DNA from: a virus
Reading direction: 5' to 3' (one strand)
IMG/VR virus record: IMGVR_UViG_3300028025_000016
Location: 1-32,056 of that record
Length of the DNA: 32,056 bases
Below are positions 6,490 to 29,925 of the stretch, one piece after another. Below the pieces are notes generated by a model, which was not told the DNA's origin, made no database searches, and was given only the letters and a program-made list of their open reading frames with translations. Numbering within the stretch: position 1 is the stretch's first letter; each line of letters opens with the position of its first letter. A program made the position numbers and the translations under genes.

Positions 6490-7676
6490 TAACCCTAGTA
6501 GAACCTACCAATAGTATCCTGCCTGCATTCAATCGTATCAACTACACGATCAGCAGCGACAACGCAAACCTATCAGGGTTTAAGTATGTAGTGAAAGTTT
6601 TTAATACTGCAAACGAGTTGATCACTCAGGCTTTCTACGATTCCCCGGCTAACCCTGCTGACTCTGTGGAATTTGATGTGAGCAAATTTGTATCTGTAAA
6701 CTTTACCTACTCAAGCGGATTCTATCAGGTAGCAACTCAGGCGAGCAATACCAACGTAATCAAAGGATACTATCTCAAGTGCTATGAATACTACGAAGTT
6801 GCAGGGGTGTTTCAGATCGTCTCAGCTTCAGAGGTGGTGAGTGCTACCAAGTATGCCTTGGCTGCTTCTTTGCCTTTGCTAGAAGAAAATAGTTTTGCTG
6901 CGGACATAAGCAAATACAATGGGGTAAGCAACACAAGTTACCTACCATTAACAGAATGGAATACAATCAAATCAAGGGAAACAGATGCGACTGTTTTAGG
7001 CTTTATCAACACAGGACTTTTAACAAATGTGGAGTTATTGGTCACCTATGCAAACGCAACTACAGCAACCTACACTATTGCGGTAAGCCCTAACCCTCCA
7101 GCGGTTGTACCTTGCGTGACCTACTTCCAGATCACACCCTTGACCTACGGGGGAAGCATCGACAATATTCAGCTTTTTGCAAATTGGAATAACGGATCAG
7201 CAAGAAGGGCAAAGTTCGCAACTATATTTATTCAGTCCTGCGGAAGATATGACCCTATGCGCTTGGCTTACCTAAACAAGTATGGGGTTTATGATTTCTT
7301 TAACTTCGACCTAGTAAGCAAGACTACCTTTGATGTAGAAAAGAAAGGATACGAGCGGAACTACTCAGGCAGCATCTATGAATCGGACGGGATCAGGGTT
7401 AAAAATATCAACCCGATCTACTACACAAAAGAGACTCAAAAGTGGAAGATTATAAGCGACTATTTAACGGATAGCCAAGCAGAGATTCTTCGGGAGTTGT
7501 ATTCATCCCCTTTGGTCTACATGAATTTGGTAAATGATAATTACATCACCCCATCATGGATACCTGCGAAGCCTACAGCGACCTCCTACGAGGTTAAAAA
7601 GACGGCGATAGACAAAGTATTCAATATTGAACTAGAACTCGAATTTCAGCTTATAAACAATCGACAGGTAATATGA
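6486..7676 (+). CDS. Tail-associated structural protein (putative)
   Basis: The 396-aa product is beta-rich and dominated by Thr, Asn, Tyr and Val. The N-terminal third (LVEPTNSILPAFNRINYTI, then FKYVVKVFNTANELIT) looks like an immunoglobulin or fibronectin-type sandwich. The C-terminal part (KTAIDKVFNIELELEFQL) reads like a Dit-type module. Similar proteins lie in Bacteroidota phage tail operons. It sits between the gp10-like gene and the large tail protein, with ATGA overlaps on both sides, so it is probably part of the distal tail. No enzymatic motif. Exact role unknown. Confidence 0.6.
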   Translation: MITLVEPTNSILPAFNRINYTISSDNANLSGFKYVVKVFNTANELITQAFYDSPANPADSVEFDVSKFVSVNFTYSSGFYQVATQASNTNVIKGYYLKCYEYYEVAGVFQIVSASEVVSATKYALAASLPLLEENSFAADISKYNGVSNTSYLPLTEWNTIKSRETDATVLGFINTGLLTNVELLVTYANATTATYTIAVSPNPPAVVPCVTYFQITPLTYGGSIDNIQLFANWNNGSARRAKFATIFIQSCGRYDPMRLAYLNKYGVYDFFNFDLVSKTTFDVEKKGYERNYSGSIYESDGIRVKNINPIYYTKETQKWKIISDYLTDSQAEILRELYSSPLVYMNLVNDNYITPSWIPAKPTATSYEVKKTAIDKVFNIELELEFQLINNRQVI

Positions 7677-9858: not shown

Positions 9859-12750
9859 ATGGCAGATAAGCGAATAAGTCAATTAGTAGATAGGGGCACG
9901 GTTGCGAATAGCGATGTGGTGCCTATCGTGGTAAGCGGTGCGAGTACAACCAACAAGGCTACGATCTCAAGCATTCAAACTTTCATGCAGGGTAACCTTG
10001 ATCTGGGGGTGACTTCTGTAGGTTTATCCATGCCTTCAGCTTTTACGGTAACAGGAAGCCCGGTTACTTCAAGCGGGAATATATCTGTAGTAGGTGCAGG
10101 AACAGTATCCCAATACATCAGGGGTGATGGTAGCCTAGCAGACTTTCCTCAAGGTGGAGGCGGTGGCGGTGCTTCTGTTAACTACTACCTAAATGGATCA
10201 GTATCTCAGGGTACTATCGGAGGGATTGCCTACTATGAGATGAATAAAGTTCCTATTTTGGGAACAGGTACAGATTTTGTGGCTATTGCAGACGGGTATC
10301 TAGCTTCATTCATTACTGATGCGGGAGATCCTAGTCTACTACAAATCCCAGGAGGGAATTGGAATTTTGAAACCTACTTCAGTGCATCTTCAGGAGGTGG
10401 TACTCCTACTTTCTATGTAGAACTTTACAAGGTAGATTCAGGAGGAACGGCTACTTTGATAGCTTCAAATTCAGGCACTCCTGAACTCATAGCATTTGGT
10501 ACTACAATTAATCCCTATTTTTCTACTCTTGCAGTACCTACTACAACACTAGCCTTGACAGATAGACTAGCACTCAGGTACTATGTAGCAAGATCAGGAA
10601 GGACTATCACCATGCATACGGAGAATAGTCACCTTTGCCAAATCATCACCACATTCACCACAGGCTTAACTGCTTTGAATGGATTGACTGCTCAGGTGCA
10701 GAATTTTGCTACAGGGACTAGTGGAACAGACTTTGCTATCTCAAGTTCATCTTCTACCCACACCTTCAATCTACCTACTGCAAGTGCTACGAATAGAGGT
10801 GTTTTGAGTAGTGCTGATTGGACTACTTTCAATAACAAAACTTCTAACCTTGGAACAGTTACAAGTGTAGGTCTATCTTCAGCTACTAGCGGGGTCACCA
10901 TTGGATCAACTCCAATCACCACAAGCGGAACTATTACCCTTGCAATAGCAACAGCTAGCGGTTCACAAAACGGCTTATTATCAAGTACAGATTGGACTAC
11001 ATTTAACGGGAAGCAAAATGCTTTAACAAATCCTGTTACAGGTACAGGAGTAAATGAAAGGGTAGCCCTTTGGAATGGAACTAATTCAATCAATTCAGAT
11101 TCTGATTTCACTTATAATTCAAGTACTAATTTACTAACTATTGGAGGGGGGATTACCCTTACAGGAGCGCAGACTATTCAAACCTCAACAGGTAACCTTA
11201 CCCTAGCTACAGCAGCAGGCAATGGAAATATTGTTTTGAATGCGCACGGAGATGGAAATGTCACTACAAATGATAGTATTTTTATTGGCTCTACTTCAGG
11301 TATAAATTATGGTGGACTTTCAAACAAATTAAGTGTTGCTACTACAAGCTATAACTTATTTGATATTTCAAGATTTTCAAATGATAATGATGGTGCAAGG
11401 CTTTATCTAGGAAAATCTAGGGGTTCAACAATTGGGAGTAGTGTAATAGTACAAAATGGAGATTTATTAGGTACTATTCAGTTTGAAGGAGATTGTGGCG
11501 AAGGTATGGTTCCTGCTGCATCAATTTCTGCTGAAGTTGATGGAGTTCCAGGATTAACTAGTGATATGCCAGGTAGGTTAATATTTAGAACTTGTTCGGA
11601 TAACACTATTTTTGCAGCTGAAAGAATGCGTATAACTTCGGCAGGTAAAGTAGGCATCGGCACGGATAATCCTCCTAGTAAATTTTCGGTTCAGTTTGAT
11701 AAGTCTGCTGCATTTGCAGGTGCAGCAGTTTATGATTCACAAGTATATAACGCTTCAGATCATGGGGGAACTCTTGGCTTTGGAGGTACATTTAATTCAT
11801 CGGGGGGGTATACAGAATGGTCTGCTATTGGTGGTATGAAATCAAATACTACTGATGGTAATGTTAGTGGAGACATAAACTTTTATACTAGACTTAATAG
11901 TAGCGCAATGACCGAACGAATGCGCATCACTTCGAGTGGCATAGTTCAAGTAATGTCGGGAAATGAACTACGAGCATATCGTTCAGATAATACACGATAT
12001 GGATCATTCTTTACTGACAATCTCGCAGTACAACTTACATCAAGTAATGACCCAATAAGAATATCATCTGCTGATAGAACAGAATTTTACACAGCAGGAA
12101 CAGAAAGAATGCGAATCACTTCGGGGGGATATTTGAAGGCTGCTAATAATGGAGGTTATAATAATGCTACAGGAACATTTCACGAATTAACCCAAAATCT
12201 AAATGGTGCTTCATCAGCAATTTTAACACATGGAGGAACATCAGACCCTTATGGGTTAGAAGTTAATTTTACAGGACATGATCCAAATAATGCTACCAAT
12301 TATATGTTTGGTGCATACAAGACTTCAGGAGGTTTTGTGTGGATTTATAGAATTTTCTCTAATGGAACTGTATCAGCTAGATCAGATGCACGATGGAAGA
12401 AAAATATTGAGACTACTCGAAACGGCTATATTGATGATTTATGCAAACTTAGAGTAGTAAAATATAATTGGTATAATCATGAAGATGATGCTCCAAAAGA
12501 ACTAGGATTAATTGCACAAGAAGTAGAAGAGGTATTCCCTAATCTAATTCAGATTGATCCTGTAATAGCAAAAAGAGAAGTAGAACAAGAAGATGGAACT
12601 ATCATTGAAGAAGAATTTGAAGATGGGGTTTCAAGAAGTATTAAAACTAGTGTTCTGCCTTTCATGTTATTGAAAGCAATACAGGAACAGCAGGCACAAA
12701 TAGAAGAACTTAAAACAGAAATCAATTCACTTAAAAACCAAATCAAATGA
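9859..12750 (+). CDS. Tail fibre with C-terminal S74 intramolecular chaperone
   Basis: The 963-aa product begins ADKRISQLVDRG, a common tail-attachment start in Bacteroidota phage fibres, followed by a Gly-rich hinge (GGGGGG near residue 100). Beta-helical repeats follow, including paired RGVLSSADWTTFN and NGLLSSTDWTTFN units and three RMRITS units. The end is a Peptidase_S74 domain: SDARWKKNI at 842-850 supplies the Ser842/Lys847 dyad, then LGLIAQEVEEVFPNL and a coiled coil. S74 domains trimerise the fibre and cut themselves off, here about 122 residues. From about base 11270 the gene is more AT-rich than its first half, which suggests replacement of the receptor-binding part. Confidence 0.88.
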   Translation: MADKRISQLVDRGTVANSDVVPIVVSGASTTNKATISSIQTFMQGNLDLGVTSVGLSMPSAFTVTGSPVTSSGNISVVGAGTVSQYIRGDGSLADFPQGGGGGGASVNYYLNGSVSQGTIGGIAYYEMNKVPILGTGTDFVAIADGYLASFITDAGDPSLLQIPGGNWNFETYFSASSGGGTPTFYVELYKVDSGGTATLIASNSGTPELIAFGTTINPYFSTLAVPTTTLALTDRLALRYYVARSGRTITMHTENSHLCQIITTFTTGLTALNGLTAQVQNFATGTSGTDFAISSSSSTHTFNLPTASATNRGVLSSADWTTFNNKTSNLGTVTSVGLSSATSGVTIGSTPITTSGTITLAIATASGSQNGLLSSTDWTTFNGKQNALTNPVTGTGVNERVALWNGTNSINSDSDFTYNSSTNLLTIGGGITLTGAQTIQTSTGNLTLATAAGNGNIVLNAHGDGNVTTNDSIFIGSTSGINYGGLSNKLSVATTSYNLFDISRFSNDNDGARLYLGKSRGSTIGSSVIVQNGDLLGTIQFEGDCGEGMVPAASISAEVDGVPGLTSDMPGRLIFRTCSDNTIFAAERMRITSAGKVGIGTDNPPSKFSVQFDKSAAFAGAAVYDSQVYNASDHGGTLGFGGTFNSSGGYTEWSAIGGMKSNTTDGNVSGDINFYTRLNSSAMTERMRITSSGIVQVMSGNELRAYRSDNTRYGSFFTDNLAVQLTSSNDPIRISSADRTEFYTAGTERMRITSGGYLKAANNGGYNNATGTFHELTQNLNGASSAILTHGGTSDPYGLEVNFTGHDPNNATNYMFGAYKTSGGFVWIYRIFSNGTVSARSDARWKKNIETTRNGYIDDLCKLRVVKYNWYNHEDDAPKELGLIAQEVEEVFPNLIQIDPVIAKREVEQEDGTIIEEEFEDGVSRSIKTSVLPFMLLKAIQEQQAQIEELKTEINSLKNQIK

Positions 12751-17672: not shown

Positions 17673-18176
17673 ATGCCTTGTGCCTTAACTCAAAGTTATA
17701 CGCTTGATTGCAAAGATAGCGTAGGCGGTTTAACAGCCGTATATTTTGCACCTTATGAAGATTTGGCAACAGTAACCATAGCAGCAGGAGTAGTGACTAC
17801 TTTGACTATGGATGCTACCAAGAGATTCTACAAGTACGATCTTGTAAAAGAATCTTCCAACTTCGCAGAGGCTGTAAATACTAACGTGCAGAATGGTACT
17901 ATTTTCTACGCTCAAACTCTCGAAATTATCCTTAACAAATTGCAGGTAAACACCAGAAACGAAATCGTTCTTTTGGGAAAAAACAGACTTGCAGTAATTG
18001 CTACAGATAATAACGGTGAGAATTGGTTCTTAGGTGTTGGAAATGGTTTGGATCTCACCGGTGGAGGAAGTGCTTCAGGTACTGCCTTCGGTGATAGATC
18101 AGGATACACTTTGACCTTCACAGGTAACGAGAAAGAACTTTGTCCAAAAGTGACAGCAGTCATCCCGATTACCTAA
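17673..18176 (+). CDS. Tail tube / major tail protein candidate
   Basis: The 167-aa product (MPCALTQSYTLDCKDSVGG, then VTIAAGVVTTLTMDATKRFYKYDL, LEIILNKLQVNTRNEIVLL and SGYTLTFTGNEKELCPKVTAVI) is beta-rich and of the size of a siphovirus tail tube subunit. It lies between hairpins that suggest its own transcript level: one after the capsid gene and a classic terminator after it. A highly expressed structural subunit fits best; the main alternative is a capsid decoration protein. The DCKDSVGG start is a recurring signature in Bacteroidota phages. Confidence 0.65.
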   Translation: MPCALTQSYTLDCKDSVGGLTAVYFAPYEDLATVTIAAGVVTTLTMDATKRFYKYDLVKESSNFAEAVNTNVQNGTIFYAQTLEIILNKLQVNTRNEIVLLGKNRLAVIATDNNGENWFLGVGNGLDLTGGGSASGTAFGDRSGYTLTFTGNEKELCPKVTAVIPIT

Positions 18177-18206
18177 TATATTTGGTTTATAGGTTAGATG
18201 TGAAAG

Positions 18207-18234
18207 CACCCTCGATTCTGGGGGTGTTTTTTTT
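18207..18234 (+). terminator. Intrinsic terminator
   Basis: CACCCTC (18207-18213), a 6-nt loop and GGGGGTG (18220-18226) form a 7-bp stem with one G-U pair, directly followed by eight T residues. This is the best canonical rho-independent terminator in the window. It also shows that the next gene cannot start at 18140 and that its ATG at 18269 is the true start. Confidence 0.88.
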
Positions 18235-18268
18235 GTGTACATACTACAGGGTTTTTGTATTTAATGAT

Positions 18269-28759: not shown

Positions 28760-28962
28760 AATCCACCGACTCACAAACCGCTTTGATCAAGGGATGGCTC
28801 CTAAATGGCAGATCTATTACGCAGCTAGATGCCTTGAATATGTTTGGCTGCTTTAGGCTTGCTGCTAGGATAGCTAACATCAGGGAGGAAGGCCTAGACA
28901 TAGTTACGGACATGATCATCGTAAACGATAAGAGGGTAGCAAATTATCGCCTATCCAAATGA
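28756..28962 (+). CDS. Small HTH-domain protein (HTH_39-like)
   Basis: The 68-aa product matches a small HTH family common in phages: SQTALIKGWLLNGRSITQLD (residues 6-25), ALNMFGCFRLAARIANIREEG (26-46) and a C-terminal beta hairpin (DMIIVNDKRVANYRL). The pattern GxSIT-x-x-x-AL-x-x-FG-x-x-RLAARI-x-x-IRxxG is characteristic. It is likely a DNA-binding regulator. ATGA overlaps on both sides. Confidence 0.78.
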   Translation: MKSTDSQTALIKGWLLNGRSITQLDALNMFGCFRLAARIANIREEGLDIVTDMIIVNDKRVANYRLSK

Positions 28963-29108
28963 GAAGGCGAAACCTAACCGAATACGAAAAAGAATTGATC
29001 TTTGAAAGATGGCAGGATCGGATACCTACAAAAGTCATAGCCATAGAATTTGGAGTAAGCTATATGTGCATTTATAACCAACTAAAAAGAAGGAATCTAG
29101 TTGGATAA
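28959..29108 (+). CDS. 49-aa HTH protein
   Basis: A short frame with ATGA overlap at the start. The product (MRRRNLTEYEKELIFERWQD, then PTKVIAIEFGVSYMCIYNQL) is a single homeodomain/resolvase-like HTH with a basic N-terminal arm. It is the third HTH protein in about 1.2 kb. Its last codons contain the -33 TTG of the promoter for the small RNA at 29136, so its transcription and that promoter overlap. Confidence 0.7.
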   Translation: MRRRNLTEYEKELIFERWQDRIPTKVIAIEFGVSYMCIYNQLKRRNLVG

Positions 29109-29129
29109 TGGAAAAAAGTTTTATATTTG
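29101..29129 (+). promoter_or_regulatory. Bacteroidota-type promoter for the 29136 RNA
   Basis: TTG (29101-29103), 18 nt, then a perfect -7 box TATATTTG (29122-29129). The expected start site, about 5-8 nt further, coincides with the first base of a 12-bp hairpin at 29136. Confidence 0.78.
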
Positions 29130-29135
29130 AATATC

Positions 29136-29223
29136 AAATCATTTTTGAGGTAGGAGCCAAAAATGATTTCACAAAGGTTTACTAAACCTAGCCCGGCAGA
29201 CTCCTACCTGTTGGGCTTTTTTA
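29136..29223 (+). ncRNA. Three-hairpin small RNA or attenuator leader with complementary loops
   Basis: Hairpin 1 is a perfect 12-bp stem (AAATCATTTTTG 29136-29147 with CAAAAATGATTT 29158-29169) and a 10-nt purine-rich loop AGGTAGGAGC. Hairpin 2 is a 6-bp stem with a 3-nt loop (29175-29189). Hairpin 3 is a 10-bp terminator stem (29190-29199 with 29208-29217) and loop ACTCCTAC, followed by T6. The loop of hairpin 1 is complementary to that of hairpin 3 over GTAGGAG/CTCCTAC. A promoter sits directly upstream. The terminator ends 10 nt before the next ATG, so the element is either an independent sRNA or a cis attenuator of that gene. No known family recognised. Confidence 0.75.
29190..29223 (+). 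terminator. Intrinsic terminator of the small RNA
   Basis: A 10-bp stem AGCCCGGCAG/CTGTTGGGCT (two G-U pairs), an 8-nt loop and a run of six T residues. It lies between a strong promoter and the ATG at 29233, as expected of an attenuator or an sRNA end. Confidence 0.85.
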
Positions 29224-29232
29224 TTTACAAAA

Positions 29233-29925
29233 ATGCAAGGGAAAAAATCATTTGTTTTGTACACGGATCAAAGGGAAGTTTTTGATGAACTTTCAGATGA
29301 AGATGCCGGTAAGTTGATTAAGCACATTTTTTCTTACGTGAATGATGAAGATCCTATCACAGAGGATAAGCTTATCAAAATTGCTTTTCTCCCTATTAAG
29401 ACTCAGCTTAAAAGAGATCTTAGAATCTGGGATGAAAAGAAAGAGCAAAGGGCTGAGGCAGGAAAGAAAGGAGGTCTAGCAAAAGCTAGCAATGCTAGAA
29501 ATGATTTAGCAAATACTAGCGATGCTATAAGTAGTGTAGCAAAACTAGCTGTAAATGTAAATGGTAATGCTAATGTAAATGCTAATGCAAATGATAATTC
29601 TTTTTTTACTATTTTTTCTACTAGGAGGCTAGGAGGAAAAAATCTATTTGAAGATATGTCTCACATCTATGATCTAAATGATGATCAAATACAAAAGCTA
29701 TATCAGGAATGGGATCTAACACATGAAGGCCAAAACTTTGAAAGTGAAAAGCATTTAAAAAATAGTTTTATCTTGTTTGTAAAAAATAATGCAAACAGAT
29801 TTAAGCAGACAAAAGTCAATAACTATAGGCACAAAGAAGAAAAGCCTAAAAGCAAAAACATATTTGCTGATATGTATCAGGATCTATTAAGAGAGGAAGA
29901 ACTAAAAAAACAATCTAACCAATGA
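29233..29925 (+). CDS. DUF6291-like phage replication-region protein
   Basis: The 230-aa product has the N-terminal DUF6291 pattern: KKSFVLYTDQREVFDELSDE (residues 4-23), AGKLIKHIFSYVNDEDP (25-41), IAFLPIKTQLKRDLRIWDEK (50-69), then basic RAEAGKKGGLAKAS (73-86). An Asn/Ala-rich low-complexity linker (about 107-122) leads to a helical C-terminal domain. Such proteins sit in phage replication regions and are thought to help initiation, but the role is unproven. Expression may depend on read-through of the terminator 10 nt upstream of its start. Confidence 0.75.
   Translation: MQGKKSFVLYTDQREVFDELSDEDAGKLIKHIFSYVNDEDPITEDKLIKIAFLPIKTQLKRDLRIWDEKKEQRAEAGKKGGLAKASNARNDLANTSDAISSVAKLAVNVNGNANVNANANDNSFFTIFSTRRLGGKNLFEDMSHIYDLNDDQIQKLYQEWDLTHEGQNFESEKHLKNSFILFVKNNANRFKQTKVNNYRHKEEKPKSKNIFADMYQDLLREEELKKQSNQ

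Follow-up and report, generated by a model that had tools for sequence, protein, structure and literature searches.

Paired hairpin loops point to an undescribed RNA switch or small RNA in many Bacteroidota viruses

Bacteroidota are a dominant bacterial group in the gut and in water, and to our knowledge the RNA-level control of replication in their phages is largely unstudied. The RNAI/RNAII pair of ColE1 and the CopA/CopT pair of R1 form loop-loop helices of about 7 bp that combine high specificity with compensated diversity. At lambda tR1/nut and HK022 put, a leader RNA lies upstream of a terminator ahead of phage replication genes. The packaging RNA of phi29 is a small RNA with two mutually complementary loops that covary between phages. 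In P4, short complementary stretches and termination control an operon that includes replication genes (PMC4825925). Here we describe an element in a 32-kb virus record of Bacteroidota type (IMG/VR record IMGVR_UViG_3300028025_000016, positions 1 to 32,056; this whole stretch of 32,056 nucleotides is called the window). Sequence comparison suggests that it is a small RNA or RNA switch of a kind not described before, carried by many Bacteroidota viruses.

The element in the window and its genes

The window encodes terminase, portal, tail, Erf and exonuclease genes, the terminase and portal being of the ordinary tailed-phage type, and no integrase was found among the proteins scanned. Its replication protein matches mostly Flavobacterium phages and its terminase has its best matches in Bacteroides and Flavobacterium phages, which indicates a Bacteroidota-type virus.

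The element spans positions 29122-29222 on the + strand and opens with a -7 box of Bacteroidota type (TATATTTG, 29122-29129). The box belongs to a putative promoter (29101-29129) in which a TTG (29101-29103) precedes an 18-nt spacer. This promoter, part of the original prediction, holds for the box, which is kept as TANNTTYG in nearly all relatives, but not for the TTG: the triplet sits in the final codons of an upstream ORF, and many relatives have TAGTAGG, so it is not a conserved part of the promoter. The upstream ORF (28959-29108, + strand), whose 3' end overlaps the -33 region, is a small HTH ORF (HTH_23, E 4.7e-05, just below the curated cut-off), and a similar small ORF precedes the element in most relatives. 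No -7-like box was found on the - strand within the window element.

Hairpin 1 (H1, 29136-29169) starts 7 nt past the -7 box and consists of perfect 12-bp arms (29136-29147 and 29158-29169) around the loop AGGTAGGAGC (29148-29157). It is followed by hairpin 2 (H2, AGGTTTACTAAACCT, 29175-29189), predicted by RNAfold, and by hairpin 3 (H3, 29190-29222), a predicted intrinsic terminator made up of a stem-loop (29190-29217) with 10 bp, two of them G-U, the loop ACTCCTAC (29200-29207) and a run of six T (29217-29222). At -16.2 kcal/mol, H3 is the strongest terminator-like site of the window. RNAfold returns the same three hairpins for the element, with a z of -2.1 relative to shuffles for the folded sequence as a whole, and together with a check of the coordinates this bears out the 12-bp H1, H2 and the 10-bp terminator with its T6 as they had been described. 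The H1 loop holds GUAGGAG (29150-29156) and the terminator loop its complement CUCCUAC (29201-29207), which together could form 7 bp, extended to 9 bp by the opening of two stem bases; we estimate the chance of a 7-nt match between such loops in a single sequence at about 5e-4.

The T-run ends 10 nt ahead of the ATG of a DUF6291 gene (PF19808, Pfam E 7.9e-27; 29233-29925, + strand), in agreement with the original prediction. The gene encodes a replication-type protein with a weak match to the primosomal protein phrog_6451, and its relatives are annotated as replication proteins in Elemovirus and an Olleya phage. No further -7-like box was found on the + strand of the window over the next 1.7 kb, so the replication genes probably rely on read-through, either of the transcript of the element or of an upstream one. 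Elsewhere in the window, TATATTTG recurs directly after the ORF at 17673-18176, in a stretch (18177-18235) with a strong terminator within 50 nt (-12.8 kcal/mol, T8); this may mark a further very short RNA or simply an operon end.

Conservation of the loop pairing in related loci

We found at least 118 distinct related loci in viral contigs, a number that counts public contigs and not independent events. They carry nine loop pairs, each fully complementary, in a set that was gathered with complementarity required. The nine loop types are GUGAGAG, GUAGGAG, GUGGUAG, GUCGGAG, GUGGAAG, GUCGAAG, GUAGCAG, GUCGCAG and GUGCAAG, and the constant flanks of the pattern-found set (GU..AG and CU..AC) are partly a product of the search pattern.

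Two collections are free of the bias towards complementarity. The first consists of 46 viral contigs fetched by the downstream protein alone, and the element is present in all contigs long enough to judge except L040. For 11 distinct loop pairs taken from predicted hairpins, with complementarity not demanded, the loops of one element pair over 6-8 nt; in the downstream-protein set, loops of different types match mostly over 3-4 nt only. The second is a scan of viral contigs in which the three central bases were unconstrained on both sides. Together with the prior loci, it gave at least 96 distinct family members with perfect cores and at least 14 chance matches with two or three central mismatches, and none among the matches listed was intermediate between perfect cores and two or more mismatches. 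Another pattern, with an N2-pyrimidine design and intended as a negative control, returned mainly chance matches and one new distant member (L187, about 2260-2380, - strand) with the loops GUGCAAG/CUUGCAC ahead of a ParB-like methylase gene. L094, of the GUCGAAG type, also lies ahead of a ParB-methylase.

Parsimony requires at least 20 switches of loop type on a tree of 49 DUF6291 proteins, at least 15 on that of 36 DUF4373-like proteins, at least 8 on that of 21 MSGWIK-type proteins and at least 17 on a tree of the RNA backbone from which the loops had been removed. The compensatory changes in homologues that the original prediction sought are found both in the H1 stem, among 80 relatives, and between the paired loops. 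G-U pairs, tolerated in the stems of H1 (44 of 969) and H3 (82 of 780), point to selection on RNA. The T-run is present in all relatives, and the sequence of H2 varies among them. Since the loop pairing is strictly kept while its sequence is free, selection appears to see the pairing itself; on this comparative evidence, the loop-loop pairing is not due to chance.

Distant subfamilies (L121, L154, L133, L145 and L187) retain the layout with different stem sequences. With other kissing sequences, it also precedes the replication module of Flavobacterium and Olleya phages that are in culture (Muminvirus, morran, elemo, 11b and Harreka). The kissing pairs are GUGAGACG/CGUCUCAC in filifjonk, GUGGAACG/CGUUCCAC in mumin and snusmum, GUGAGAAG/CUUCUCAC in morran, GUGAGAUG/CAUCUCAC in elemoA_11-9C, UGAGAGC/GCUCUCA in elemoA_7-9A, CGGGCAGG/CCUGCCCG in phage 11b and GUGGUGG/CCACCAC in Olleya phage Harreka_1; on reversed sequence, the same descriptor gave 2 matches in 1.52 Mb. 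By the strict descriptor, no kissing element was found in FpV9 or in short stretches of Leeuwenhoekiella Arctus, Shewanella ZP9 and Vibrio D478. Of the three hairpins first proposed, all are present in the window, but H2 is not universal: the Flavobacterium isolates have an A/U-rich linker in its place. The invariant core therefore excludes H2 and comprises the promoter box, a hairpin, the terminator and the pairing between their two loops. The claim that the loops are complementary over 7 nt, or 9 with stem opening, is confirmed in the window, and complementarity is kept across the related loci and cultured phages. There is strong support for a phage RNA, about 87 nt long, whose two loops are truly in contact and which ends in a terminator ahead of replication genes.

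Mumin6-1 and tooticki carry a second element, with the loop pair GUCGUCG/CGACGAC, immediately ahead of the ATG of a NUMOD4-type HNH endonuclease. Altogether 34 Flavobacterium phage records contain this second promoter-hairpin-kissing-terminator unit (11666-11760 in mumin6-1, MN812220, listed as L198; 94-185 in L189), and their copies are at least 99% identical. In Cellulophaga phage phi13:2 (L202, about 1384-1475), the gap before a DUF6291-like gene contains TACATTTG, CTCTCAC and then a large terminator-like hairpin whose loop includes GTGAGAG; this complementarity, with the purine and pyrimidine sides swapped, may be chance.

The genes downstream are unrelated between loci and include DUF6291, DUF4373-like, MSGWIK-type, VapE-like, ParB-methylase and HNH genes. 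A switch strictly specific to replication was rejected, as copies also precede the last three of these. Near-identical copies of the element lie ahead of three different replication-gene families in L048, L072, the window and others, as if the RNA marked a recombination boundary between replication modules. The module downstream of the element also differs between filifjonk and mumin6-1.

Possible roles of the element

We favor, with a probability of about one half, a cis-acting attenuator leader of Bacteroidota phages in which H1 kisses its own terminator and thereby tunes read-through into the replication genes; an attenuator of these genes was one of the two alternatives in the original prediction. 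We infer the transcription start, the intramolecular kissing and the effect on termination each from sequence. Transcription would begin at the first hairpin, and in the growing transcript the H1 loop would capture the loop strand of the terminator hairpin in a kissing helix of 7-8 bp. This helix would set how often RNA polymerase stops ahead of the replication (or nuclease or methylase) genes, with the terminated RNA of about 87 nt as the abundant product and the read-through mRNA as the rarer one. The contact could set either the efficiency of termination or the lifetime of the terminated RNA.

The layout of an attenuator, with promoter, structured leader, intrinsic terminator and same-strand gene, is present in the form of sequence signatures. 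In 117 of the 117 main-set loci with a readable downstream ORF, a start codon follows the T-run on the same strand at 5-21 nt, and it is this anatomy that suggests attenuation. Cis action is suggested by three further results. In the complete genomes of filifjonk and mumin6-1, the kissing 8-mer and its complement are each found a single time, inside the element; 7-9-mers of an element's own type are not enriched in the DNA flanking it; and among 384 terminators in the loci examined, kissing is found only at those of the family. The two elements with different loops in mumin6-1 are also what would be expected of cis switches. Against an attenuator, the unrelated downstream genes mean that the RNA could be an independent gene beside a compact module, transcription of these genes could also start from promoters further upstream, and by our rough geometry the short linker would be strained if the intramolecular kiss were fully stacked.

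The window contains nine copies of CTCCTAC on both strands, compared to 2.6 expected, and the extra copies lie in distant genes. The seven extra copies on the + strand are at 7583, 9430, 10403, 15442, 15837, 19961 and 24552, and the copy at 15442 matches over 9 nt. Trans targets within the phage were rejected on the flanking DNA and the two complete genomes, with the exception of the window at 7 nt; this excess also counts against the attenuator, as trans targets may exist in the window phage.

It is possible, at a lower level of confidence, that the element is a structured phage small RNA that stands on its own, about 87 nt long, in which the kiss only compacts and stabilizes the molecule and the function lies elsewhere, for example in binding a protein or acting on a host factor; its place ahead of replication genes would then reflect genome compactness. 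The promoter box and terminator that almost all copies carry, the many unrelated neighbor genes and a seemingly cassette-like behavior, with near-identical copies preceding non-homologous genes, all fit such an RNA. The constant strand and spacing relative to the start codon in the main set do not, and apart from the promoter and T-run no sequence is evidently common to all lineages, which leaves no apparent shared site that a protein or RNA could target. Because the loops differ strongly between lineages, they are unlikely to address one fixed host RNA, to mimic a Shine-Dalgarno sequence or to contain a fixed site for a protein, and a fixed host target is further disfavored by a leader that precedes unrelated genes. 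The suggestion that the purine-rich loop is a Shine-Dalgarno or antisense seed fails, as does an anti-Shine-Dalgarno mimic, because AGGAG is confined to the AGG loop type, the others being GUGGUAG, GUGAGAG, GUCGGAG, GUGGAAG, CGGGCAGG and GUGGUGG. A leader peptide or peptide-leader attenuator is likewise unlikely, as no conserved closed frame was found in 85 elements. Mimicry of a tRNA anticodon loop, with CUNNNAC resembling the anticodon loop and GUNNNAG the codon, was rejected because cultured phages have other loops and the flanks are partly imposed by the search.

Two readings we regard as very improbable. Complementary loops that covary between phages within one RNA, as in the phi29 packaging RNA, could link molecules head to tail into rings, yet the site is a replication module and not a packaging one, the terminase and portal are of the ordinary type, and intramolecular pairing is simpler. 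Equally, the arrangement GTNNNAG ... CTNNNAC immediately ahead of replication genes could be an inverted repeat at the DNA level, either operator half-sites or an origin bound by a replication protein; the spacing, however, differs between lineages, the arms always lie in hairpin loops, and the G-U stem pairs are a sign of selection at the RNA level.

Pairing between molecules of the same type is a more serious alternative, although still an unlikely one. Using the loop of H1 or that of the terminator, terminated copies would pair with nascent ones made from sister genomes or by a superinfecting relative and would sense copy number or exclude kin, like P4 CI RNA or IsrK. This is consistent with loops that are alike inside a lineage, vary from phage to phage and show high turnover, and with the different loops of two elements in one phage; intermolecular pairing within one phage would leave an identical signature. 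By pairing with seqA/seqC, P4 CI RNA terminates its replication operon, and IsrK in its short form acts on the read-through mRNA of its own (PMC4825925). The intramolecular partner is always at hand, however, and should compete. As a prophage immunity RNA the element is improbable: no copy of the main form turned up in about 85,000 genome assemblies or, in a model-based search run without a positive control, in 198 Bacteroidota genomes, and the mumin phages are reported to be lytic only, without lysogeny genes (PMC7077304).

More speculatively, the element could represent a new class of RNA switch, built on an upstream hairpin that kisses the loop of its own terminator, with hypervariable matched loops serving as a private address. 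Recognition would take place between leaders of the same phage, in cis or in homotypic trans, and replication genes would be tuned by RNA dose, that is by genome copy number, or kin excluded; we consider this doubtful. Termination set by a cis contact between the terminator loop and an upstream hairpin, through matched loops that can be freely swapped, would be a novel mechanism and a ready source of orthogonal RNA switches. The presence of the RNA in many environmental viruses and in cultured Flavobacterium and Olleya phages makes it directly testable.

Comparison with described RNA systems

The original prediction held that the RNA matches no known family, and indeed Rfam gave no match above threshold; in the open-access literature, no paper was found on the RNA or on the cis pairing of a terminator loop with an upstream hairpin. 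The likeness to RNAI that had been proposed is upheld for the 7-bp kissing geometry only. ColE1 and R1 control relies on sense and antisense RNAs from opposite strands, whereas both loops of the element lie on the + strand of one predicted transcript, which does not agree with an opposite-strand antisense transcript. Unlike lambda tR1/nut and HK022 put, the element has no boxA/boxB or put-type element that we identified, and we know of no loop pairing with the terminator in either system. The phi29 packaging RNA is part of a packaging motor and kisses between molecules; it differs from the element in position, size, fold and packaging system, and the position of the element and the genome type argue against the likeness.

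The P4 CI and P1-P7 C4 antisense RNAs (Rfam C4) are also short RNAs in the leader of a phage operon, where complementarity and termination set expression (PMC4825925). The element differs in having only two complementary stretches, both hairpin loops in one terminated RNA, and in occurring in lytic Bacteroidota phages; the genomes tested hold no antisense partner outside the element. The C4 covariance model gave no match at the gathering level or up to E 5. No extra target sites like those of a C4 operon leader were found in the flanks or in the two complete genomes, and the missing integrase, the lytic mumin phages and the absence from the bacterial genomes searched do not suggest temperate carriage. 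IsrK of Gifsy-1, a Salmonella prophage, belongs to another host and a temperate element, and the available part of the source describes no cis kissing with the terminator loop; it resembles the element in that one promoter gives rise to both a short terminated small RNA and a read-through mRNA (PMC4825925).
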